Of a stretch of 38,505 nt of DNA, positions 1 to 31,212 are shown piece after piece. The position numbers and the translations under genes were made by a program. The stretch is from a virus. The notes beneath the pieces are model-generated. The model was not told where the DNA came from and did no database searches. It worked only from the letters and a program-made list of their open reading frames with translations. The DNA lies in IMG/VR virus record IMGVR_UViG_3300043773_001988, positions 1-38,505 of that record; one strand, given 5' to 3'. How positions within the stretch are numbered: position 1 is the stretch's first letter; each line of letters starts with the position of its first letter.

Positions 1-140
1 CTCTCGAAGACACGCCGGTCGGCGTACCTAATTTGCTGGCAGCCGTCGAAAGCCGCAAAACCGGCGATTTGGAGGTTTTGGCTCGACCCTGCGCTGGACT
101 GGTTTGCGTCGTGCTAGGCGGCAGACCTACACTAACGGGC
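1..140. other. Left-edge leader with no firm gene
   Basis: I see no gene I can support here. Frame 1 is open from the edge to a stop at 115-117 and could be the tail of an upstream gene, but its translation shows no recognisable motif. Frame 3 is open into the small terminase, so a longer N-terminus for that protein is formally possible. A 7-bp inverted repeat, CAAAACC at 56-62 and GGTTTTG at 74-80, lies here with no T-tract after it, so it is a poor terminator candidate. Confidence 0.3.
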
Positions 141-623
141 ATGGCACGAGGCCCGGCACCAACTCCGAAGCACATCTTGGCCCTCCGTGGGTCCGAGGAG
201 GCGAACTATCGCGAGGAACTCGGCACGCCTCTCCGCGAAATGCCGCAGCCTCCCGACTACATCAAGCCGCTCGCCCAGCAGATGTTCCGGCAGGTCTGCG
301 AATACACGCAGAACATGGGGACTTTGGCCGAGAGCGATGTCGAGGTGATCGCCCGCTACGCGGCAGTCTGGGAGCGGTGGCGGACTGCCGAGGAACAACT
401 CAAGGGCATGGACAGCGGTTACGTGGAGGTGCTCGCCCCCGACGGCAGCCTCCGCTTCAGCAGGCCCAACAAGTGGATGACGCAAGCCAACGTCAGCCAC
501 GAGCAACTGCGTCAGTTGGAAACCGTCCTTGGCCTCACGCCGGCAGACCGCACCCGGCTTGGCTACCACGCCGAGAAAGTCGTCCTCGACCCGATGGACG
601 AACTGCTCAAAAAGCGTGGTTAG
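141..623 (+). CDS. terS: Terminase small subunit (P27-like)
   Basis: Predicted DNA-recognition subunit of the packaging motor, 160 residues. The N-terminus (MARGPAPTPKHILALRGS) matches the pattern of P27-family small terminases, which begin with a basic G-R-P/P-P-T segment and then K-x-L-x-L-R-G. A helical body follows with R-x-A-x-x-W-x-R-W and, near the end, a T-P-A-D-R-T-R-L segment, also usual for the family. It lies 21 bases before the large terminase, the expected order. I chose ATG 141 because it gives the family-typical start; the frame stays open upstream to the edge and no strong Shine-Dalgarno precedes 141, so the start is less certain than the identity. Confidence 0.85.
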   Translation: MARGPAPTPKHILALRGSEEANYREELGTPLREMPQPPDYIKPLAQQMFRQVCEYTQNMGTLAESDVEVIARYAAVWERWRTAEEQLKGMDSGYVEVLAPDGSLRFSRPNKWMTQANVSHEQLRQLETVLGLTPADRTRLGYHAEKVVLDPMDELLKKRG

Positions 624-644
624 TTCGCGATTCGCGAACAACAC

Positions 645-3320
645 ATGGCAGTCGACATCTGCGACTTCATCGGCCTTCTTAGGCACTCCCGCGGCGACTT
701 CGCTGGGCAGCCGTTCGTCCTAGAGCAGTGGCAGAAGGACTACCTGAAGACGCTTTTTGACACGAAGCGGTCTGACGGACTGCGGCAGTATCGGACCAGT
801 TTGCTGGCTTTGCCGCGGAAAAACGGGAAGGCGCTGGCGCTGGACACGCCCGTGCTGACGACAGCCGGCTGGAAGACGATGGGGACGATCGAGGTCGGAG
901 ACCACGTCTTTCACCCGCTAGGCCACACAACAAGAGTAGTGGCGGCAACCGAGGTGATGCTGGACAGGCCGTGCTACCGCGTGGAGTTCACGCCCGGCGA
1001 GGCTATCGTGGCTGACGCCGATCACCTATGGCTTACAAACGCGAGAATCGACCGTCCCGGCCTCGGCACAAGCCAGAACCTGAAGGGCACAAACGTACCC
1101 GGCAATCGCATTCGGACGACAAAGGAGATCGCGGATACCTGCTTCGCCGGCCCGCGAAATGACCGCAATCACGGCGTGACGGTGGCGGAGCCTCTGCAAT
1201 ACCCGGAAGCAGACCTTCCAGTCGACCCATACGTTCTCGGCGTGTGGCTCGGTGACGGAGATTCAAGGTCGGCAAGGGTGACCGTCGGCCTTAAAGACTC
1301 CGCGGTCATCGACAACCTAGTCAGCGCCGGGGCGCCGGTGTCTGTTTCAAAGGACAGAGCCGTCTATTCAGTGCGCCTTGGCGGAAGAGGAAACAGGCCG
1401 CAAACCTGTGGAAGAGGACACCAGCGTCAGGCAGGCCGGCGTTGCGTCGAGTGTGATCGCCTGACGCAAAGGTGTCGCTACAGCGGCGCCACGCCACCGC
1501 CTCGTCAGCCGACGACGATCAGTGCCCGGCTTCGACTGATGGGTCTTTTCGGGAACAAGCACATTCCTCCGACCTACCTGCAGGCAAGCAGCGGCCAGCG
1601 ACTTGCGCTGCTACAGGGCTTGATGGATAGCGATGGGACTTGCGCCGACGGAGGGCAGTGCGAGTTCGCGAACACGTCCAGAAGGCTCGCCGAGGACTTC
1701 GCCGAACTAGCCATATCGCTCGGGCTGAAAGTGTCGTTCAACGAAGGCGTCGCGAAGATTTACGGACGAGTGATCGGGCCAAAATACCGAGTTCAATTCA
1801 CTCCACTGCTCCCGACCGTGGTGTTTCGGCTCTCCAGAAAGCAGGCGAGAGTCAAGGCTCCGCCAAAAACGTCGCCGCGGTCTCGGACGCGACAGATTGC
1901 GTCGTGCGACCCAGTCGAGTCCGTGCCGGTTCGCTGCATTCAGGTCGAGTCGCCGGACGGGATGTTCCTCGTCGGCAGGTCGCTGATCCCGACGCATAAC
2001 TCCGCTCTCTCGGCCGCCGTTGGCCTGTATATGCTCTTCTGCGACGACATCGGCGCCGAAGTGATCGTGGCCGCCGGTGACCGATCGCAGGCTGCCCTCC
2101 TGCATACGGCTGCCAAGCAGTTCGTCGAATCCTGCCCGTCGCTCGCACGGCAGTGCAAGGTCTACAGGAATTCCATCGTCCTGCCAGATCGCAACGCCTC
2201 GATGTTCTGCATCTCGAGCGAGGCCGGCACGAAGCACGGATACAACCCGTCATGTGTGCTGGTCGATGAGTACCACGTATTCCCCGACAGGGAACTGGTC
2301 GACGTGCTCGAGACCGGCATGGGTGCCAGAAGCCAGCCGCTGACCATCTACATCACGACGGCCGGAAGTAACCGAAACGGGCCGTGCTACGCGGATTGGC
2401 AGCGTGCCGAAAAGATTCGCGACGGCATCCTGAAAGACCACACATTCCTGCCGTGCATCTACGCGGCCTCGGCAGACGACGATCCGTTCCTTGAGGAGAC
2501 TTGGAGGAAGGCCAACCCGAACTACGGGATCACGCTCAAGCCGGACTACTTCCACCAGATGGCCGCGAGGGCGAAGCAGTCTGCCTCCGAGGAGGTCGTC
2601 TTCAAGACGCTCCATTTGAATACTTGGGTGTCTTCTGCCTCCAAGTGGATTCGCCACGGTGCGTGGGAGGCGAACTCCGGCCCACTGCGGCCGACGGAGT
2701 CCAGACCGGCCTACTGCGGCGTCGACCTTGCCAGCACGACCGACACGACAGCGTTCGTGGCGGTGTGGCCTGACGACGACGGCACGTTCGACGTACACGC
2801 TCACATCTTCGTGCCGGAGGAGCGAGCCGAGGAGGCGTCGAAGCGCGACCGCGTCCCGTACCTCCAATGGGCGCAGCAGGGTTTTGTTACACTAACAGAG
2901 GGCGATGTCTGCGATTACGACGCAGTCCGCGACTACATTCTCTCGTTTTGCGAGAAGAATGAGGTTCGGGCTGTAGCCATCGACAGGTACAACGCCACGC
3001 ACTTGACGACGCAACTGGTCGCCGAAGGCATCGAGGTTCGGCCTTTTGGGCAGGGCTTTGTGTCGATGAGCGCGCCCAGCAAACTGCTCGAAACCCTCAT
3101 AATCTCCAAGAAATTGCGGCACGCCGGAAACCCGGTTTTGTCTTGGCAGGTGAGCAACGTGCAGATCAAGACGGACGACGCCGGGAACATCAAGCCGTCG
3201 AAGAAGAACGCCAGTTCGACCGCCCGCATCGACGCCGCCGTGGCACTCATCATGGCGCTGGGAATCTCGTCCGGCGAGGCCCGCGGCCCCGAAGAAGAAC
3301 CCGAACTGATGGTGTTCTGA
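645..3320 (+). CDS. terL: Terminase large subunit, intein-containing
   Basis: ATPase and nuclease that cuts and packages phage DNA. The precursor is 891 residues; removing the intein (63-452) leaves 501, normal for a Terminase_1 large subunit. The Walker A motif is split: LPRKNGK ends at residue 62 and the Ser that completes GKS is residue 453. Walker B is VLVDEYH with D541 and E542. The RNase H-like nuclease is seen as GVDLASTTDT, then AIDRYN, then TARIDAAVAL near the C-terminus, giving the expected acidic residues. The gene sits between terS and portal, with the portal ATG one base after its stop. Function must depend on splicing, since the intein separates the P-loop Lys from its Ser. Confidence 0.95.
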   Translation: MAVDICDFIGLLRHSRGDFAGQPFVLEQWQKDYLKTLFDTKRSDGLRQYRTSLLALPRKNGKALALDTPVLTTAGWKTMGTIEVGDHVFHPLGHTTRVVAATEVMLDRPCYRVEFTPGEAIVADADHLWLTNARIDRPGLGTSQNLKGTNVPGNRIRTTKEIADTCFAGPRNDRNHGVTVAEPLQYPEADLPVDPYVLGVWLGDGDSRSARVTVGLKDSAVIDNLVSAGAPVSVSKDRAVYSVRLGGRGNRPQTCGRGHQRQAGRRCVECDRLTQRCRYSGATPPPRQPTTISARLRLMGLFGNKHIPPTYLQASSGQRLALLQGLMDSDGTCADGGQCEFANTSRRLAEDFAELAISLGLKVSFNEGVAKIYGRVIGPKYRVQFTPLLPTVVFRLSRKQARVKAPPKTSPRSRTRQIASCDPVESVPVRCIQVESPDGMFLVGRSLIPTHNSALSAAVGLYMLFCDDIGAEVIVAAGDRSQAALLHTAAKQFVESCPSLARQCKVYRNSIVLPDRNASMFCISSEAGTKHGYNPSCVLVDEYHVFPDRELVDVLETGMGARSQPLTIYITTAGSNRNGPCYADWQRAEKIRDGILKDHTFLPCIYAASADDDPFLEETWRKANPNYGITLKPDYFHQMAARAKQSASEEVVFKTLHLNTWVSSASKWIRHGAWEANSGPLRPTESRPAYCGVDLASTTDTTAFVAVWPDDDGTFDVHAHIFVPEERAEEASKRDRVPYLQWAQQGFVTLTEGDVCDYDAVRDYILSFCEKNEVRAVAIDRYNATHLTTQLVAEGIEVRPFGQGFVSMSAPSKLLETLIISKKLRHAGNPVLSWQVSNVQIKTDDAGNIKPSKKNASSTARIDAAVALIMALGISSGEARGPEEEPELMVF
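831..2000 (+). mobile_element. Class 3-type intein with LAGLIDADG endonuclease
   Basis: 390-residue in-frame insertion (precursor residues 63-452). It begins with Ala rather than Cys or Ser and ends in T-H-N followed by Ser+1. It carries the triplet that defines class 3 inteins: Trp at block B position 12 (H127-L-W129-L-T131), Cys at block F position 4 (V-R-C431-I-Q-V, where other inteins usually have Asp) and Thr at block G position 5 (P-T450-H-N452). Two LAGLIDADG-like helices are visible, VLGVWLGDGDS near residue 200 and LLQGLMDSDGT near 325, with acidic residues kept. A C-x3-H-x7-C-x2-C cluster (C255, H259, C267, C270) between them may bind zinc and DNA. The insertion point is between K and S of Walker A. 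Confidence 0.92.
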
Positions 3321-3321
3321 C

Positions 3322-4974
3322 ATGGACGAAGCGCCGTACACGGGCCTCTTGTCGCTGCGGTCGCAGAGCCTGTCACGGGTCTTCGAGGAGATCGCGGAGT
3401 CGCGGAAGACGGCCGCAGGCGTCCACGTCTCGCCGGAGACGGCGCTTGAATGCACGGCCGTGCTGGCCTGCGTCCGGCTCCTGTCGGAGTCGATCGCGGC
3501 GATGCCGACGAACCTGTACCGCCGGCTCCCGGGCGGCGGCAAGGAGATCGCCGACGACCAGCCGCTGCACGAGATTCTGGCCTACCAGCCCAACTCGTGG
3601 ATGACGAGTTTCGAGTTCAAGGAACTCATGCAGTCGTGGCTTCTCTTGTGGGGGAACGCCTACGCCCACATCAAGGGCAGCATCCGCCGCGGCGCCGTGG
3701 ACGAATTGATCCCGCTCCACCCGTCGCGGATGGAGGTCAAGCGGCTCGAGAACGGCAAACTGCGGTACTACTACCGCGAGCCGGCGACCGTGACCGACCC
3801 GAACCCGCAGCCGACGGAGTACCGGCAGGACGAGATTTTTCACCTGCGGTGGATGTCATCGGACGGCGTGCGCGGGTACGTGCCAACGGCCCTGTCGAAG
3901 GACGCGATCGCCCTCGCCCGGGCGACGGAACTGCACTCAAGCGCGTTCTTCGGGAACGGCGCGTCGATCGGCACCTATATCGAGGTCGATCAAGCCCACA
4001 AGCCGGAGTCGCTCCAGCGGTTCCGCCAGCAATGGGACGAGGCTCATCGCGGGCCGGAAAAGGCGTTCAAAACCGTAGTGATGCCGTTCGGCTTCAAGAA
4101 GAAGAGCGAGCCGGTCAACAACGCGGACAACGAGTTGGTATCCACGCGGCGATTCCAGTTGGAGGAGGTCTGCCGGGCCTACCGGGTGCCGCCACATCTG
4201 GTCGGCGACTTGTCGAACGTCCGCTACAGCACGGTGGAGCAGGCGGCGATCGACTACAAGACGTTCAGCATCATGCCGTGGTGCCGGCGGTGGGAATTGG
4301 CGTGCCGCCGCGACCTCGTGGTGGACGACAAGACGTACTTCGTCGGGTTCGATATGAACTCGCTCATGGCCGGCGACTACGCGGCCCGCTCGACGTACCT
4401 CCGCGAGGCGTTCAACACGGGCGCCCTCGATGTCGACGAATACCGGGCGGAGATCGGCTACAACCCGCTCCCCGGCGACCTCGGCAAGAAGCGGTTCGTG
4501 CAGGTCAATATGCAACTTCTGGACGCTTTTACCCTTGAAACACCGAACGGCCAGCCGCCCCAAGCCGCCCCGACCAGCCTCCCGGCCGAGGAGCAGCCTC
4601 CAGAGCAGCAAGACGGCGACCAACCGCCAGCGGAAGCCGAAGCCGATCGATCCATCGACGCATCCGAAGCACTTTTCCGCACGACTCTCCGACGCATCGC
4701 AGCCGTCGAAGCCGACGGAATCCTCGCCCGCCGGTCGAAAGCGGAGAAAATCACGCAATGGTTCGGCCAAGTCGAGGAGAAACTGCGTGAAGAGTTACTC
4801 GACGCAGCAAATGCTACTGGCAGAGACATTGATTCGTTCGTGGTATCGTGGCTAGAGCGCTCGAAAGACCTGCTTTTGGACTGCCATCGCAGCGGAAAAC
4901 CCTACGAAACGGTCACTGATCGCTGGTTCGAGGCTCATTTCGAGGAGGAGAACGATGTCCGCGAACGAAATTGA
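3322..4974 (+). CDS. Portal protein (HK97 family)
   Basis: Dodecameric vertex channel for DNA entry and exit, 550 residues. The first 400 residues fit the HK97-type portal family: an ALECTAVLACVRLLSESIA helix, then PLHEILAYQPN, an F-x-E-L-M-x-S-W-L-L-x-G-N-A-Y segment, a VRGYVPTALSKDAIALA region, and RVPPHLVGDLSNVRYSTVEQ, which is highly typical. The C-terminal part is Pro/Gln-rich (about 410-440), then a helical domain with charged residues that may project into the capsid. The start is one base after the terL stop; the end overlaps the protease start by 20 bases, so translation is likely coupled. Confidence 0.95.
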   Translation: MDEAPYTGLLSLRSQSLSRVFEEIAESRKTAAGVHVSPETALECTAVLACVRLLSESIAAMPTNLYRRLPGGGKEIADDQPLHEILAYQPNSWMTSFEFKELMQSWLLLWGNAYAHIKGSIRRGAVDELIPLHPSRMEVKRLENGKLRYYYREPATVTDPNPQPTEYRQDEIFHLRWMSSDGVRGYVPTALSKDAIALARATELHSSAFFGNGASIGTYIEVDQAHKPESLQRFRQQWDEAHRGPEKAFKTVVMPFGFKKKSEPVNNADNELVSTRRFQLEEVCRAYRVPPHLVGDLSNVRYSTVEQAAIDYKTFSIMPWCRRWELACRRDLVVDDKTYFVGFDMNSLMAGDYAARSTYLREAFNTGALDVDEYRAEIGYNPLPGDLGKKRFVQVNMQLLDAFTLETPNGQPPQAAPTSLPAEEQPPEQQDGDQPPAEAEADRSIDASEALFRTTLRRIAAVEADGILARRSKAEKITQWFGQVEEKLREELLDAANATGRDIDSFVVSWLERSKDLLLDCHRSGKPYETVTDRWFEAHFEEENDVRERN

Positions 4975-7006
4975 GCGCCGGATCACCGCATCCGACACGG
5001 CAATTGAGTACCGCGAGGTCGACGGCGGCGAAAAGCGGCCCGTGATCGTCGGGTATGCGGCCGTATTCCAGTCGCCTTCGAGAGATTTGGGTGGTTTCAT
5101 CGAGACCATCCACCCGCGGGCGTTCGATGACGTCCTGAAGACGAATCCCGACGTCGTCGGCGTGTTCAACCACGACAAAAACATGCTTTTGGCGCGTTCG
5201 GCGAACGGTTCGCTCCGCCTGAAGGCCGATCCCTACGGCCTGCGCTACGAAATGATGCCTCCGAAGACGAAAACGGCCGACGAGGTCGTCGAATTGGTCT
5301 CCGGCGGGTACGTCACCGGGTCGAGTTTCGCGTTTGCGATCTCTCGGAGCGGCGGAGACTCGTGGAGCACGGACGAACGGGGCATCCGCAGGCGAGAAAT
5401 CCGCTCAATCAGCCTCCTCGACGACGTCGGACCCGTGGTTCGTCCTGCCTACGAGGCATCCAGCGTGGTCGTGAGCCGTCGGGCGATCGAAATGGCCCTC
5501 GGCGACGCCTTCCGGCCGAATCAGACGATGGCGAACGCGGCTCGGAAGGGTCTGCGGGCCGCCAAGTCGCGTGGAGACTTCGACGAGCGGCTCGTCGCGG
5601 TCGCCGAACGCATCGCGGAGCGCGAGGTTCTCTCCGTCGAGGAGGTCGAGTTCCTCGCCGGCACGCATCAGCGGTGCCACGAGGTCCGCTCCGTCGGCTG
5701 GTCCGGCTCGCCGGCGTGGGTCGAGTGGATGCTGGCCGGCGGCGACGGCGGCGAGAAGTGGGTGCAGCGTCGCTCTCTCGCCGAGCGAGAGAGCGAAGTT
5801 CGGACGCCGCAGGCTATCCCTGACTCGGCACCAGAACCACGAGCCGCCCCGAACGAACTCACCGAAGGCGACTTCGTCGCGTGGGACGGCGGCATCGGCC
5901 GCGTCGAGCACATCATGCGAGAAGGCTCGATCCAAGGCATGACGGCGACGCCGGAGGCGCCGCTGGCCGTGGTGACGCCGTTCGACGATGGCGAGCCGGA
6001 AGGCTACATGGTCGCCGTGATGGTCTCGGAACTCACGAAGACCGACCAGCCGGAGCCGGAGGAGGACGACGAGGACGAAGAAGAGGACCGTGCCGCCGGC
6101 GACAAGTCCCAGTCGACGCCCGCCCCAGCGAAGGACCGGATCACGGGCAGCGACGCGAACAAGGAGGGATCGGCCAAGAACGCGAGCGGCCGGATCGCCG
6201 TGTCGCAGTCTGTTCGCGCCGGCCTACAGAACAAGGTCCGCGGCCACAACGAGGCCATGCGTGAGGACGAGAAGCCGTCGTGGTCTCGGACGACGCTCGG
6301 GCAGTTGCTCGCGGTCTACAGGCGTGGCGCCGGGGCGTACTCGACCAGCCACCGGCCGGGCGTGAGCCGTGGAGCGTGGGCGATGGCCCGCGTGAACGCC
6401 TACCTGTACCTCCTGCGAAACGGCAGGCCGCAGGACGCGAAGTACGTCACCGACAACGACCTCCTTCCGGCCGACCACCCGAAGTCGTCGAAGGAGCGGA
6501 GCGTCGAGGCGGACGTCGAAGAGCGCGAGGTCGACCTGAAGCCGACGACCGGCATGGCCGCCGCGGCCAGACGCGGACTCCGCCTCCACGAGGAGGGGAA
6601 GAGCGGCGACGGCCTCAAGCCGGAGACGGTCGCGAGGGCGAACAAGATCGCACGACGCGAGGAACTCACGCCGGACCACGTCCGCGAGATGAATGCGTGG
6701 TTCGCACGCCACGAATCGGCGAGCAAGTCACCCGGCTGGGACACGCCGGGTGCTGAAAAGCCGGGTTTTGTGGCGTGGTTATTGTGGTCGGGAGACGCCG
6801 GGCAAGTGTGGTCAGCACGAAAGGTGGCGCAGATGGAACGCGAAGCAGCGAGGTCGGAGCCTGCGGTCGCCGAGGTCGAGCAGCAGGTCGAGCAGGTGCA
6901 GCAGCCGGAGCCTGTCGTGGACGTCGATGCGACTGACGCAGCGGCCAAGTTGGCCGCGCTTCAGGAGGCTCTGCTCTGGACTAAGTTGCACGACACCGAC
7001 GGTTGA
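4955..7006 (+). CDS. Prohead protease with long C-terminal fusion
   Basis: Capsid maturation protease, 683 residues where the usual HK97-type enzyme has about 200. Residues 1-180 are the protease: GYAAVFQS, the catalytic His in FNHDKNMLLA (H73) and the probable catalytic Ser in TGSSFAF (S124), ending SISLLDDVGPVVRPAY. After this come a segment beginning ANAARKGLRAAKSRG (about 192-270), a WDGGIGRVEHI domain, an acidic linker rich in D/E near 370, a domain with AVYRRGAGAYSTSHRPG and RVNAYLYLLRNG, and a second copy-like segment, AAAARRGLRLHEEGKSG (534-628). The fusion may combine protease with scaffold or delivery functions. A strong GAGGAG precedes ATG 4955. Confidence 0.9.
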   Translation: MSANEIERRITASDTAIEYREVDGGEKRPVIVGYAAVFQSPSRDLGGFIETIHPRAFDDVLKTNPDVVGVFNHDKNMLLARSANGSLRLKADPYGLRYEMMPPKTKTADEVVELVSGGYVTGSSFAFAISRSGGDSWSTDERGIRRREIRSISLLDDVGPVVRPAYEASSVVVSRRAIEMALGDAFRPNQTMANAARKGLRAAKSRGDFDERLVAVAERIAEREVLSVEEVEFLAGTHQRCHEVRSVGWSGSPAWVEWMLAGGDGGEKWVQRRSLAERESEVRTPQAIPDSAPEPRAAPNELTEGDFVAWDGGIGRVEHIMREGSIQGMTATPEAPLAVVTPFDDGEPEGYMVAVMVSELTKTDQPEPEEDDEDEEEDRAAGDKSQSTPAPAKDRITGSDANKEGSAKNASGRIAVSQSVRAGLQNKVRGHNEAMREDEKPSWSRTTLGQLLAVYRRGAGAYSTSHRPGVSRGAWAMARVNAYLYLLRNGRPQDAKYVTDNDLLPADHPKSSKERSVEADVEEREVDLKPTTGMAAAARRGLRLHEEGKSGDGLKPETVARANKIARREELTPDHVREMNAWFARHESASKSPGWDTPGAEKPGFVAWLLWSGDAGQVWSARKVAQMEREAARSEPAVAEVEQQVEQVQQPEPVVDVDATDAAAKLAALQEALLWTKLHDTDG

Positions 7007-26123: not shown

Positions 26124-26429
26124 ATGCCGGCGACGCACCACTTCCTGATCGCAGGCGCCCGCTGGGTGTGGCGGTACAGCCGCCTCCGCGGGCGTGCCGC
26201 CGGGTGGGCGTACCTTCCTGACCCAAACAAGCCCGGCGAGCCGTCGGTGCGGAAGGTCTTGATCGACTCGCGGCTGAAAGGTCGGACTCGCATGGAGACC
26301 GAAATCCACGAGGCGCTCCATGTGTGCTTTCCGCAGATGAGCGAGGAGACGATCACGGCGAGCGCCCGCGACGTGAGCAGAATCCTCTGGTTCCTCGGAT
26401 ACCGCCTCCAAGAGGACAAGCAGCCGTGA
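26124..26429 (+). CDS. Small zincin-like protein with HExxH
   Basis: 101 residues. ETEIHEALHVCFP contains H62-E-A-L-H66, the zinc-binding and catalytic signature of metallopeptidases, preceded by the strand RKVLIDSRLKG. A downstream SEETITASARDVSRILWFLG helix supplies acidic residues that could give a third ligand (several candidates). Similar short HExxH proteins occur in many phages without known substrate. It may cleave a virion protein or peptidoglycan-linked peptide. Starts 33 bases after the glycosyltransferase, and its stop overlaps the next start (GTGA). Confidence 0.65.
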   Translation: MPATHHFLIAGARWVWRYSRLRGRAAGWAYLPDPNKPGEPSVRKVLIDSRLKGRTRMETEIHEALHVCFPQMSEETITASARDVSRILWFLGYRLQEDKQP

Positions 26430-27037
26430 GCAACACGTACATCGTGGGCGCCGGCGGCTTCGGCCGCGAAGTGCTTCGCTGGGCACGGGACGCCGGCATC
26501 GACGTGGACGCCTTCCTCGACACGGCCGAGGGCGTCGCGTGCGGCCTGCCGATCCTGCCCGACGACCTCGTGTTTTCGCCGCGTGACGTCTTCCTGTGCG
26601 GCATCGGCGAGCCGGCTCTCAAGCGAATCGTCTGCGAGCGACTCCGCAGCCGCGGGGCGCGGTTCTGGACGCTCGTCCACCCGACCGCGATCGTCACCGA
26701 GCCGGCCGCGACGGGGGAGGGCTGCGTGATCTGCCCGCACGCGATCCTGAGCGTCGGGTCGTCCATCGGGCGTTTCGTGACGGTCAACTGCGCCGCGACC
26801 GTCGGCCACGACACGGTGACCGGCGACTACTGCTCGATCTCAAGCCACGCCGACATCTGTGGGCACGCGAGCCTCGGCGAGGGCGTCCTCGTCGGATCGC
26901 ACGCCAGCATCCTGCCGCACGCCCACGCCGGCGACTGGTCGATCGTGGGCAGCGGCAGCGTCGTCGTCCGCGAGGCGCCGGAGCGATCCACCGTCATGGG
27001 AGTCCCTGCGGCAGTTATCTACAGGAAGCCACAATGA
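26426..27037 (+). CDS. Sugar O/N-acyltransferase, NeuD/PglD family
   Basis: 203 residues from GTG 26426. The N-terminal Rossmann-like half opens YIVGAGGFGREVLRWARDAG (residues 5-24), the standard start of NeuD/PglD proteins. The C-terminal half is a left-handed beta-helix of hexapeptide repeats (ICPHAI, IGRFVTVN, DYCSIS, LGEGVLVG, SIVGSGS). The catalytic His in ATVGHDTVTGD is H128, in the family position. Family members pass an acetyl group from acetyl-CoA to an amino sugar or sialic acid; related beta-helix enzymes (LpxA, LpxD) use acyl-ACP. The next gene is an acyl carrier protein, which makes an ACP donor plausible. Confidence 0.88.
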   Translation: MSNTYIVGAGGFGREVLRWARDAGIDVDAFLDTAEGVACGLPILPDDLVFSPRDVFLCGIGEPALKRIVCERLRSRGARFWTLVHPTAIVTEPAATGEGCVICPHAILSVGSSIGRFVTVNCAATVGHDTVTGDYCSISSHADICGHASLGEGVLVGSHASILPHAHAGDWSIVGSGSVVVREAPERSTVMGVPAAVIYRKPQ

Positions 27038-27252
27038 GCGAGTTCTGCGAGGCGCTCGACCAACTGGTCGAACAGCCGGCCGGCACCAGCCAGCCGGAGA
27101 TGTACCTAAACCACCTCGCCGGGTGGGACTCCATGAGCGCGATGGGGTTTATGGCGATGGCCGACAAGAAGTACGGCGTGATCGTGAGCGCCGCACGGCT
27201 CATGGAAGCGAAGACCGTCGGCGACTTGGCCGCACTCGTGGGAATCCAATGA
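27034..27252 (+). CDS. Acyl carrier protein
   Basis: 72 residues. The phosphopantetheine site is G-W-D-S33-M, with S33 as the attachment Ser, followed by the recognition helix S-A-M-G-F-M and the final helix TVGDLAALVG. The W-D-S form, not the G-A-D-S-L of primary fatty-acid carriers, is common in specialised ACPs of glycan and secondary-metabolite loci. No phosphopantetheinyl transferase is visible here, so host AcpS or Sfp would have to activate it. ATGA overlaps on both sides place it in the core of the cassette. Confidence 0.88.
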   Translation: MSEFCEALDQLVEQPAGTSQPEMYLNHLAGWDSMSAMGFMAMADKKYGVIVSAARLMEAKTVGDLAALVGIQ

Positions 27253-27794
27253 GACAGTTCACGCACGACTGGCTGCCTGAGTCGCTATCGAAGCGGTGGC
27301 GGGAGTTCGTGCTCCCGCGACTCAAGCATCCGCTGCGCTGGCTGGAACTCGGCTCATACGAGGGCCGCTCGGCGTGCTGGGTGATCGACAACGTGCTCGA
27401 GGACGAGGACGTCTTGGTCTGCGTCGATCACTGGGTGAACGCCGACGCGGAGGCGCGATTCGACCAGAACACGGCTGGCCGGACGGAGAAGGTGAAGTCG
27501 CGGACGACGCAATACCTCGCTCGCGCGATCGCTGCCGGCGACAGTTTTGACGTCGTCTACATCGACGCCGACCACGAGGCCAAAAACGTCTTCAAGGATG
27601 CGGCGATGACGTGGCCGCTCCTGCCGGTCGGAGGCATCGGCATCTTCGACGACTACCGCTGGCAGATGCCCGCCGAGAAGTCGCACCTCCTGCCGCCGAA
27701 GCCGGCGATCGACGACTTCCTCGAGGTCTACGCGGGCTACATCGACGTCCTGCACAAGGACTACCAAGTCATCTTTCAGAAGGTGGGCCGATGA
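27249..27794 (+). CDS. Class I SAM-dependent methyltransferase
   Basis: 181 residues. Motif I LELGSYEGRSACW (residues 33-44) begins the Rossmann fold, VCVDHW is the acidic second strand, FDVVYIDADHEAKNVFKD the fourth, and GGIGIFDDYRW the fifth. This is the Methyltransf_24 type, whose members often modify sugars or small phenolic acceptors; D-A-D-H and D-D-Y could bind a metal. It probably O-methylates a glycan or the acyl product of the cassette. Coupled by ATGA to the ACP and to the LamG-like gene. Confidence 0.87.
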   Translation: MRQFTHDWLPESLSKRWREFVLPRLKHPLRWLELGSYEGRSACWVIDNVLEDEDVLVCVDHWVNADAEARFDQNTAGRTEKVKSRTTQYLARAIAAGDSFDVVYIDADHEAKNVFKDAAMTWPLLPVGGIGIFDDYRWQMPAEKSHLLPPKPAIDDFLEVYAGYIDVLHKDYQVIFQKVGR

Positions 27795-28483
27795 GTCTCT
27801 TGTCGTTGATAGCAAGGCCGCGGTGGCTGCGGCCAGCGGCGATCGAGGGCGACCCGTTCTTCGAGGACGTCCTCTTGCTCCTGCACATGAACGGCACGGA
27901 CGGCGGGACGACGTTCACGGATTCAAGCCGTTTCGCGCGCACCGTGACACGGTCGGGGGCGACGACGTCGAAGACGCACCGCAAGTTCGGCGACGCCAGC
28001 ATGAGCGTGACATCCTTTCAGAGTGTGTCCGTACCGGCGAGCACCGACTTCGGCCTCGCGGGCGACGATTTCACGGTCGAGGCGTGGGTGCGGCCGACGC
28101 TTGTCAATGGCCGACACGGCATCGCGGACTTCGGGTCCAGCAATCACTTCATCTTTGAGGTGTCCGACGCGAGCAAGTTCCGAGTGTTTCTGTGGAACGG
28201 CGGCGGGTTCACCATCATCTCAGGCGCGACAACGGTCGTGGCGAATGCGTGGTATCACGTCGCCGTCACCCGTTCCGGCACGACCTTGAAACTCTGGGTG
28301 AACGGCACCGAAGACGCGAGCGCCGGTTCGGCGAGCGGCCCACCGGACTCGTCATACCCAGTTCGTGTCGGCCTTACGCAGGCGAGCGGTTTCGCCGGCT
28401 ACATCGACGAGTTCCGCATCACGCGGCAGGCCCGCTATTCGGCGGCGTTCTCCGTGCCAGTGAAGCCATTCCCAGACAGGTGA
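27791..28483 (+). CDS. LamG/concanavalin-like lectin domain protein
   Basis: 230 residues. FEDVLLLLHMNGTDGGTTF and T-D-S-S-R-F-A-R, then FTVEAWVRPT, AWYHVAVTRSGTTLKLWVNG and FAGYIDEFRITRQARYSAAF are the standard milestones of the LamG_3 jelly-roll fold, here complete. Such domains bind carbohydrates and appear in phage fibres. Lying inside an enzymatic operon, it may be a virion protein whose gene shares the transcript, or a glycan-binding helper. The start ATG overlaps the methyltransferase stop. Confidence 0.85.
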   Translation: MSLLSLIARPRWLRPAAIEGDPFFEDVLLLLHMNGTDGGTTFTDSSRFARTVTRSGATTSKTHRKFGDASMSVTSFQSVSVPASTDFGLAGDDFTVEAWVRPTLVNGRHGIADFGSSNHFIFEVSDASKFRVFLWNGGGFTIISGATTVVANAWYHVAVTRSGTTLKLWVNGTEDASAGSASGPPDSSYPVRVGLTQASGFAGYIDEFRITRQARYSAAFSVPVKPFPDR

Positions 28484-28487
28484 GAGC

Positions 28488-29423
28488 GTGCCAATCCAAG
28501 GCGTCGCGATCCGCGACATCGCCGTGGCCGTGCCTTCGACAGTGCGAGATCAGTCGCGCTGGGGCGCCGCGGCGTCGAAACTTGAGGCCGCCACCGGCGT
28601 CTGCGAGCGTCGTGTCGTCGACCGCCTGACGCTCACCGACTTGGCCGAGGCCGCGTGCCGCGAGGTGCTCGGCCGGGCGGTTCAGGCGATCGTCGTCGTC
28701 ACGCAGACGCCGGACCAGCGGATTCCGCCGGTCGCGAACGTCCTGCACGGAAGGCTCAACCTCGGCACGGCGTGCGCCGCGTTCGACGTGAACCAAGGGT
28801 GCTCCGGCTACACATACGGCCTCGCCGTGGCGGCTGGCCTAGCCGCAGCAGGCGTGCCTCGCGTCCTCTTGGTCGCCGGCGACTGCCTGTCTACCGTCGT
28901 CTCGCCGAACGACCGTGCGACCGAGCCTCTATTCGGAGACGCGGTGAGCGCGACGATCCTCGAGCGGGACGACGACGCGCCGCCACTGCACGTCGCCTTC
29001 GGCAGCGACGGGAGCGGGGCGGAGCATCTGTCGCTCGCCCACGGCGACACGTCGTGCCTCAAGATGAACGGCGCCGAGGTCTTCGAGTTCGCCATGCGGA
29101 CGGTGCCGATGATGGTCACCGAGTCGCTCGCGGCGGCCGGCTGGACGATGGACACGGTCGACCAGATCGTCCCGCACCAGCCAAACCAGTTCATGCTGCG
29201 GCACCTACGCGAGAAGTGCGGCGTGCCGGAGTCGAAGTGGGTCGACGGCGTCGTTCGGCACTTCGGCAACGTGTCGAGCGCGTCGATCCCGCTGGCGCTA
29301 GTGACCTGCGGAAGCAAGGCGAAGACTGTCATGGCCGGATTCGGCGGTGGCTGGTCGTACTGCGCCGTCGCTGCCGACCTGTCCACGACGAGGCTCCACG
29401 ACCTCGTGGAGGTCGCCGAGTGA
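28488..29423 (+). CDS. 3-oxoacyl-ACP synthase III-like (KAS III)
   Basis: 311 residues, the length of bacterial FabH. The Cys-His-Asn triad is complete: C105 in DVNQGCSGYTYGL, H230 in IVPHQPNQFM, N261 in FGNVSSASIPLAL. LFGDAVSATIL and the end GFGGGWSYCAVA are also standard. KAS III enzymes join an acyl-CoA with malonyl-ACP to give a 3-oxoacyl-ACP; cousins of the fold esterify or transfer acyl groups. With an ACP and a FabG-like reductase beside it, short 3-hydroxyacyl-ACP is the simplest predicted product. GTG start, 4 bases after the LamG stop; GTGA overlap with the reductase. Confidence 0.92.
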   Translation: MPIQGVAIRDIAVAVPSTVRDQSRWGAAASKLEAATGVCERRVVDRLTLTDLAEAACREVLGRAVQAIVVVTQTPDQRIPPVANVLHGRLNLGTACAAFDVNQGCSGYTYGLAVAAGLAAAGVPRVLLVAGDCLSTVVSPNDRATEPLFGDAVSATILERDDDAPPLHVAFGSDGSGAEHLSLAHGDTSCLKMNGAEVFEFAMRTVPMMVTESLAAAGWTMDTVDQIVPHQPNQFMLRHLREKCGVPESKWVDGVVRHFGNVSSASIPLALVTCGSKAKTVMAGFGGGWSYCAVAADLSTTRLHDLVEVAE

Positions 29424-30151
29424 GATACCTCGTGACCGGAGGGTCCAGCGGCATCGGGGCCGCCACGGCGAGGCTCTTGGCAGCCGGGGGCCACGACGTC
29501 TACCTGCTCGGCCGCGACTACGGCCGCCTGCGGGAAGTCCACGACGCTCTGCCGGCCGGAAACCACGGCTGGAAGAGCATCGACCTCGTGTCGCTTGGCG
29601 ACCGCACCGACGACGTGCTCGCGGACATCGCAGCGGTCCACGGGAAGTTCGACGGCGTCGTCCACGCCGCCGGCATCCACTCGCTGATCCCCCTACGATA
29701 CCAGACGCACGCCAAAGCGGACGAGATGATCGCGGCGAACTACCACACGGCGTGGCACGTCGCGAAAGCGTTCCGGCAGCCGGCCGTGCGGGCCGGCGGG
29801 GCCGACGCGATCGTGTTCGTCGCAAGCGTGGCCGGGATCGTCGGGCAGGCAGCCGCGAGCGCCTACGCAGCGTCGAAGGCCGCGGTGCTCGGGCTGACCA
29901 AGGCGCTGGCGGTCGAACTGGCATCCTCCGGCATCCGGGTCAACGCCGTCGCCCCGGGCGTCGTCAGGACGCCGATGCAGGAGCGGCTCGAGCACACGAT
30001 GTCTCCGACGCAGTGGCAGGCCGTGGTCGACGACCACATCCTCGGCCTCGGCGAGCCGGAGGACGTCGCCGAGGCGATCCAGTACCTCCTGCGTCAGAAG
30101 TGGACGACGGGGACCATCCTCACGATCGACGGGGGAATGACCGCACGATGA
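29420..30151 (+). CDS. SDR, FabG-like 3-oxoacyl-ACP reductase
   Basis: 243 residues from GTG 29420. Cofactor motif TGGSSGIG (residues 6-13), then VHAAG (81-85), catalytic S136 in FVASVAG, Y149 and K153 in YAASK, and the family ending RVNAVAPGVVRTPM and TILTIDGGM. An Arg/Asp pattern after strand 2 (LLGRDYGRL) hints at NADPH. FabG-like enzymes reduce 3-oxoacyl-ACP to the 3-hydroxy form, fitting the KAS III upstream; action on a sugar is the alternative. It is linked by GTGA and ATGA overlaps. Confidence 0.9.
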   Translation: MRYLVTGGSSGIGAATARLLAAGGHDVYLLGRDYGRLREVHDALPAGNHGWKSIDLVSLGDRTDDVLADIAAVHGKFDGVVHAAGIHSLIPLRYQTHAKADEMIAANYHTAWHVAKAFRQPAVRAGGADAIVFVASVAGIVGQAAASAYAASKAAVLGLTKALAVELASSGIRVNAVAPGVVRTPMQERLEHTMSPTQWQAVVDDHILGLGEPEDVAEAIQYLLRQKWTTGTILTIDGGMTAR

Positions 30152-31212
30152 TCCCGGCCGCCTACTACGTTTCCGAGGAGCAGTACGCACGCGAGGTGAC
30201 GGCGCTCGCGAACTCCGTCTGGACTCCGGTCTGCATGGCGAACGAGATTGCCGGAGACGGCGACTACGTCGTCCGCGGGAAAGTCATCGTCCAGAACGTC
30301 GGCGGCGAACTGAAGGCGTTCTTGAACGTGTGCCCGCACCGTCTCAACAGGCTGGTCTCGAAGCCCTGCGGAACCGGCCCGCTTGTCTGCGGCTACCACG
30401 GCTGGGAGTTCGGGCCGGACGGCCTCCCGTGCCGGGTGCCGAAGCGGCCCAGTTTCGACGGCGTGAACCTCGCAGAGCACGGACTCGCCGTGTACGAGGC
30501 GGCACGGTGCGGCAACCTCGTGTTCGTCTGCCGCACGAAGGCGATCGAACTGGAGGCGTGGCTCGGAAATGCTTGGGGGACGATCGCCGCGATGACCGAC
30601 GCCTGCGGCGAGAAACTCGACACAAACCGCATCTGGATGCGGTGCAATTGGAAGATCGCCGTCGAGAACACGCTCGAGGCGTACCACGTCGGCCACGTCC
30701 ACCCGGAGACGTTCCACCGACTCGGGGCGAACGGCGGCGAGTTCTCCTTCGCCGGCCCGCACTCGTCGTGGTCGACGCCCCTGTCGGCGAAGACGACGGC
30801 GTGGCTCGAATCGATGGAAGACGTGTTCGCCTCGCGGCCGTACAAACCGGCAGGCTACGTCCATCAACTGGTCTTCCCGCACTGCACGATCGCGAGCGCG
30901 GCAGGCATGAGCGTATCGGTCCAGTTCTTCGCCCCGGCCGGCGTCGGCGAAACGGAGTTCACGTCGCTGGTCTACGCGACGAAGGTCTGCGACCTCCCGC
31001 CGGCACAGGCGGAACGCCGCGAGGTGTTCAACAAGTCGGTCGTGGACTTCAACCGGGCCGTGTTCGCCGAGGACGCCGCAGTTTGCGAGAGCGTCCACGC
31101 CGGTGCCTGCGACGCCGCTGGTTCGGGCGTGGAAGCGATCCTGTCAGAGGACGAGGAGCGTGTCGGGCATCACATCAGCGCACTCCTGATGGCGTGCGAC
31201 GGTCTTTCGTGA
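30148..31212 (+). CDS. Rieske non-haem iron oxygenase
   Basis: 354 residues, normal for an oxygenase alpha subunit. The [2Fe-2S] Rieske site is C62-P-H64 and C81-G-Y-H84, 16 residues between. The mononuclear iron site is in NWKIAVENTLEAYHVGHVHP, with H180 and H185 at the usual spacing and E177 in the bridging position; an E-D-A-A-V-C-E segment near the C-terminus offers the acidic third ligand. Such enzymes hydroxylate, demethylate or desaturate. No ferredoxin or reductase gene is here, so host electron carriers would be needed. Substrate unknown; the acyl-ACP product or the sugar are the candidates. Confidence 0.9.
   Translation: MIPAAYYVSEEQYAREVTALANSVWTPVCMANEIAGDGDYVVRGKVIVQNVGGELKAFLNVCPHRLNRLVSKPCGTGPLVCGYHGWEFGPDGLPCRVPKRPSFDGVNLAEHGLAVYEAARCGNLVFVCRTKAIELEAWLGNAWGTIAAMTDACGEKLDTNRIWMRCNWKIAVENTLEAYHVGHVHPETFHRLGANGGEFSFAGPHSSWSTPLSAKTTAWLESMEDVFASRPYKPAGYVHQLVFPHCTIASAAGMSVSVQFFAPAGVGETEFTSLVYATKVCDLPPAQAERREVFNKSVVDFNRAVFAEDAAVCESVHAGACDAAGSGVEAILSEDEERVGHHISALLMACDGLS

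Follow-up and report, generated by a model that had tools for sequence, protein, structure and literature searches.

The 38,505-nucleotide viral sequence analysed here (the window; IMG/VR record IMGVR_UViG_3300043773_001988) carries on its + strand a reading frame of 891 aa, open throughout (645-3320), which encodes an HK97-type large terminase (TerL) with a long in-frame insertion in its ATP-binding loop. This raises the questions of what the inserted segment is, by which route it might leave the protein, and whether it may still move between genomes. Very probably it is a full-length class 3 intein, with splicing and endonuclease parts, at the P-loop (TerL1-a) site of the terminase, and as such it would be expected to splice and may well cleave DNA and home. 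Its anatomy, homology, empty sites and conservation were observed directly, and its fold was predicted.

The gene hosting the insertion is readily recognized. A small-terminase-like gene (PHROG 83 match) lies at the start of the window, and the exteins match Pfam TerL_ATPase (1.6e-20), TerL_nuclease (3.8e-46) and PHROG 9 (5.7e-146). The N-extein (645..830, aa 1-62), assigned by translation and terminase-family homology, ends with the Walker A lysine of PRKNGK, and the C-extein (2001..3320), which also matches terminase 6Z6D, runs from Ser+1 through the remaining ATPase domain and the nuclease domain to the stop codon. Between them lies the intein (831..2000, + strand; 390 aa, Ala1 to Asn390), i.e. 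precursor residues 63-452, in frame between Lys62 and Ser453 and splitting the Walker A motif as PRKNGK/S (slash, insertion point). An earlier note, made from the sequence alone, had placed an intein at just this position between Lys and Ser; translation, Pfam and PHROG matches and intein-free homologues bear it out. The boundaries are set independently by these homologues, one of them at 97% DNA identity, which align straight across the site. No host could be assigned through TerL, for which the closest terminases in phage records are about 41-43% identical and come from varied hosts.

Within the intein, translation and alignments delimit an N-terminal splicing region with blocks A and B (831..1046, approx. 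aa 1-72), including His65 (1023-1025) and Trp67 of an HLW triplet (codon 1029-1031). It is followed by a first LAGLIDADG motif, LGVWLGDG (1236..1259, aa 136-143, acidic D142), and a second one, LQGLMDSDG (1611..1637, acidic D268). The stretch between the two holds a putative zinc-binding motif, CGRGHQRQAGRRCVEC (1407..1454; C193, H197, C205 and C208), recognized from the sequence. Blocks F and G, RCIQVESPDGMFLVGRSLIPTHN (1932..2000), close the element with Cys369 at F:4 (codon 1935-1937), Thr388 at G:5 (codon 1992-1994), His389 and Asn390.

An unguided phmmer search aligned both halves of the splicing domain to the solved class 3 DnaB inteins 6BS8, 6RIX and 6RIY, with E-values of 1e-26 to 1e-28 that rule out a chance match, and a family profile of the intein's relatives placed class 3 structures at the top, followed by PI-SceI. 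The AlphaFold model of the intein, made without rows from named phage records, reached a pLDDT of 93.2. Its splicing half superposes on 6BS8 (Z 22.9, 1.2 Å over 125 residues, 51% identity), thus indicating a HINT splicing fold, and the model as a whole matches PI-SceI over its entire length, including the two-motif LAGLIDADG domain (Z 27.5). The two best-matching kinds of structure resemble the window's intein in different respects. The Mycobacterium inteins M. smegmatis DnaBi1 (6BS8) and M. chimaera DnaB1 (6RIX) share its splicing domain (1.2-1.9 Å, about 51% identity), the same W-C-T residues, the B:10 histidine and the terminal THN, but are mini-inteins without endonuclease, hosted in a helicase. 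PI-SceI, the yeast VMA1 intein, combines a splicing domain with a two-motif LAGLIDADG endonuclease in the same way, but belongs to class 1 with Cys1 and is only about 20% identical.

The endonuclease half, which matches Pfam LAGLIDADG_3 and Hom_end, bears on the strongest competing explanation, namely that the element splices as a class 3 intein while its endonuclease is already dead or its target lost, so that it is now inherited vertically only. Both LAGLIDADG motifs retain their acidic residues in one chain, the region is free of stop codons and frameshifts, and a full fold is predicted for it, in agreement with the earlier description of the endonuclease as apparently intact. The dN/dS of the nuclease region is also low, about 0.16-0.30 relative to inteins at the same site in related phages, values for which dS is partly saturated; for the whole intein it is 0.23 relative to the near strain L003, an estimate from only ten substitutions. 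The nuclease half thus appears conserved and under purifying selection, which makes a homing-competent intein plausible. In that case terL genes without the intein, in relatives infecting the same cell, would be cut by the LAGLIDADG domain, and repair would copy the intein across. The motif CxxGH-x7-CxxC between the LAGLIDADG motifs is absent from the nearest same-site inteins and is present in 22 of the 135 class 3 inteins collected, and is therefore best regarded as a recurrent accessory.

Points in favour of a dead endonuclease or a lost target come from the distribution of the intein. A search for intein-free terminases with the same flanks, which had been suggested as a check, was productive: with the joined exteins as query, 80 loci were returned, and the site is uninterrupted in the 73 where it is readable, from 99.8% down to about 49% amino acid identity. 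Close relatives that carry an intein at the same site are few. At the DNA level, a query made of the window's codons leading up to the junction gave no match. The most informative empty locus is that of a nearly identical strain (IMGVR_UViG_3300034073_003949, handles L013 and L101), which shares 97% DNA identity with the window across 5 kb and has no intein. Outside the junction, its terminase region and the window's differ at about 10 of 2,330 positions (about 0.5%). In the 3′ flank of the intein (2001..2012, + strand), DNA comparison shows 6 differences among the first 12 bases past the insertion point (TCCGCTCTCTCG vs AGCAGCCTCTCA), a cluster unmatched in strength in 20,000 permutations. 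The Ser-Ser that follows the junction in this empty strain is unique, relatives having Ser-Ala, Thr-Gln, Ser-Gln or Ser-Thr, and its flank may for this reason represent the derived state.

Two histories fit this 12-base difference, and we offer them tentatively: coconversion, in which the intein would have brought along its own short flank, or recoding of the empty allele, with one amino acid change, such that the endonuclease may no longer cut it. If the second were true, the empty strain would be a natural homing-resistant target inside one phage population. Such an escape cannot be assumed, since cleavage by an intein tolerated a partner site of 75% identity in mycobacteriophages BAKA and Courthouse (PMC5050341). 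Weighing the scarcity of same-site relatives and the altered site of the empty strain against the conserved motifs, predicted fold and low dN/dS, we consider loss of endonuclease function or of its target unlikely, though a serious contender. Irrespective of this, two strains whose terL genes are nearly the same apart from the intein and a 12-bp flank form an unusually clean empty-site pair, and good material for the study of homing, coconversion and target escape.

Assignment to class 3 rests on the arrangement of the residues expected to carry out splicing. The published signature consists of Trp at B:12, Cys at F:4, Thr at G:5 and Ser or Thr at +1 (PMC5222942), and the 831-2000 intein has all of these. 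Its first residue, Ala1, offers no Cys, Ser or Thr nucleophile, and its +1 residue is Ser (Ser453 of the precursor), as already read in the earlier note along with W129, C431 and T450 of the precursor, which correspond to W67, C369 and T388 in intein numbering. In pairwise alignments these three fall on the W, C and T of 6BS8 and 6RIX, at B:12, F:4 and G:5, respectively, the last followed by H389-N390, and His65 falls on the block B histidine (B:10). The class 3 route proposed earlier thus agrees with the register of all three residues, and C431 in particular coincides with the block F cysteine of both structures and is invariant in relatives. Among ten inteins aligned at first, Trp67, Cys369, Thr388, His389 and Asn390 were all invariant; with 59 and with 63 rows, Trp67 and Cys369 remained so and Thr388 nearly so. 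Thr388 is replaced by Ser in one of the 135 collected inteins, a frequency partly set by construction since the collection was chosen by class 3-like patterns. C369, H65 and T388 are the counterparts of the triad Cys124-His65-Thr143 described for the M. chimaera intein (PMC7664689).

By analogy with studied class 3 inteins, Cys369, aided by His65, would attack the Lys62-Ala1 peptide bond to give a block F branched thioester, and the acyl group would then pass to Ser+1, giving the block G branch. Cyclization of Asn390, aided by His389, would free the intein, and an acyl shift would restore the native PRKNGKS, so that the ATP-binding loop would exist only after splicing. The position of the insertion likewise implies that the ATPase activity of TerL, and with it the packaging motor, would depend on splicing. 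The alternative of class 2-like or class 1-like splicing, with direct attack by Ser+1 and no need for Cys369, could appeal to Ala1, which like the first residue of class 2 inteins is no nucleophile. It is nevertheless very improbable in view of the full W-C-T signature, of a block F cysteine that is invariant and aligned to class 3 structures, and of the finding that the class 3 inteins studied no longer splice once the F:4 cysteine is mutated (PMC5222942). Least probable of all is an in-frame insertion that does not splice and leaves a broken or fused terminase, since the splicing blocks are all complete, both exteins are intact with a dN/dS of 0.10-0.13 relative to L003, and the P-loop of an essential motor would be lost if the insert stayed in place.

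Elements of this kind are already known. According to Kelley et al. 2016 (PMC5050341), the inteins of mycobacteriophages are hosted mainly by TerL, where both class 1 and class 3 occur; five of these terminase inteins were shown to splice and two to cleave DNA. In the same study, site TerL1-a is defined as lying between the P-loop Lys and Thr, and the window's PRKNGK/S insertion, between the P-loop Lys and Ser of the TerL ATPase domain, fits this allele. The TerL intein of cluster E mycobacteriophage JeTaime shares the class 3 signature, the same junction (ARKNGK/T) and a full-length form with LAGLIDADG, but is only about 37-44% identical (exteins about 30%), has Thr instead of Ser at +1 and lacks the CxxGH/CxxC motif; judging from the sequence, cluster E inteins would be those of the ‘a’ site. 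The large terminase of Vibrio phage 489E54-1, a marine phage, has a class 3 signature intein at RKYGK/T, about 38-45% identical to that of the window. Of the earlier description of a rarer, known and phage-linked class, the latter two terms stand, down to the exact TerL1-a site in PMC5050341, while ‘rarer’ needs tempering, as class 3 inteins are numerous in phage P-loop ATPases. A GK/S or GK/T motif is split by 115 of the 135 uninterrupted class 3 inteins gathered, a site preference not imposed by the way they were chosen. Since such elements are known at the same site in other phages, the window's intein is an ordinary though clean addition. It widens the range of class 3 inteins in terminase P-loops beyond isolated mycobacteriophages to an uncultivated phage family, and leaves general knowledge of inteins unchanged.

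In the intein tree the window groups, with a support of 99, with L003 and four inteins of uncultivated phages (L004, L105, L106 and L107), which occupy the same site (RK[NS]GK/S) in the same TerL family at 50-67% identity but all lack CxxGH/CxxC between the LAGLIDADG motifs. The window and L004 are 67% identical in the intein vs 60% in the extein, and L004 and L106 are 53% identical in the intein vs 75% in the extein. The extein data strongly reject a grouping of the window with L004 (p 1.5e-5). A tree conflict as evidence of horizontal transfer was considered and set aside, the intein data not rejecting a clade of L004, L105 and L106 (AU p 0.29). The pattern of identities and trees is suggestive of horizontal transfer of the intein.

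Several variants were noted among the other inteins encountered. A class 3 mini-intein of 133 aa, lacking an endonuclease, interrupts a terminase-like protein at GK/T on another viral contig (L008:4001-4399). At two loci from bacterial genomes (L236 and L240) stop codons interrupt the class 3 intein reading, which suggests decayed copies or assembly frameshifts. Some class 3-type inteins (L005:222-1295, L006:3998-5152, L158, L206, L210, L215 and L218) begin with Pro (10 of 138) or Gln in place of Ala, and the L005 insert sits earlier in the P-loop, at GGGRG/SGKS.

Elsewhere in the window, comparison with the intein-free strain (L101) shows almost identical terminase genes within positions 1-3250, and differences of 1-10% per 250 bases over much of the downstream genome. 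Another contig, L102, has essentially the same sequence as the window over the 5.5 kb that precede positions 5509-6370 and over almost 2 kb behind them; within this segment, which falls in the C-terminal part of a protease ORF (4955-7006), about 40 positions and small indels set the two apart. A diversity-generating element was considered for this segment and dismissed, as the substitutions are of all types and not adenine-specific; it looks like ordinary recombination, or an assembly mosaic. Finally, a series of metabolic genes atypical of phages (26324-31212, + strand) encodes a PglD/hexapeptide acyltransferase, an acyl carrier protein with its phosphopantetheine site, a methyltransferase, a lectin-like LamG protein, a beta-ketoacyl-ACP synthase III (28488-29423, best PDB match 3e-46), a short-chain dehydrogenase/ketoreductase and a Rieske oxygenase, and looks like a cassette for the modification of acyl chains or surface sugars.
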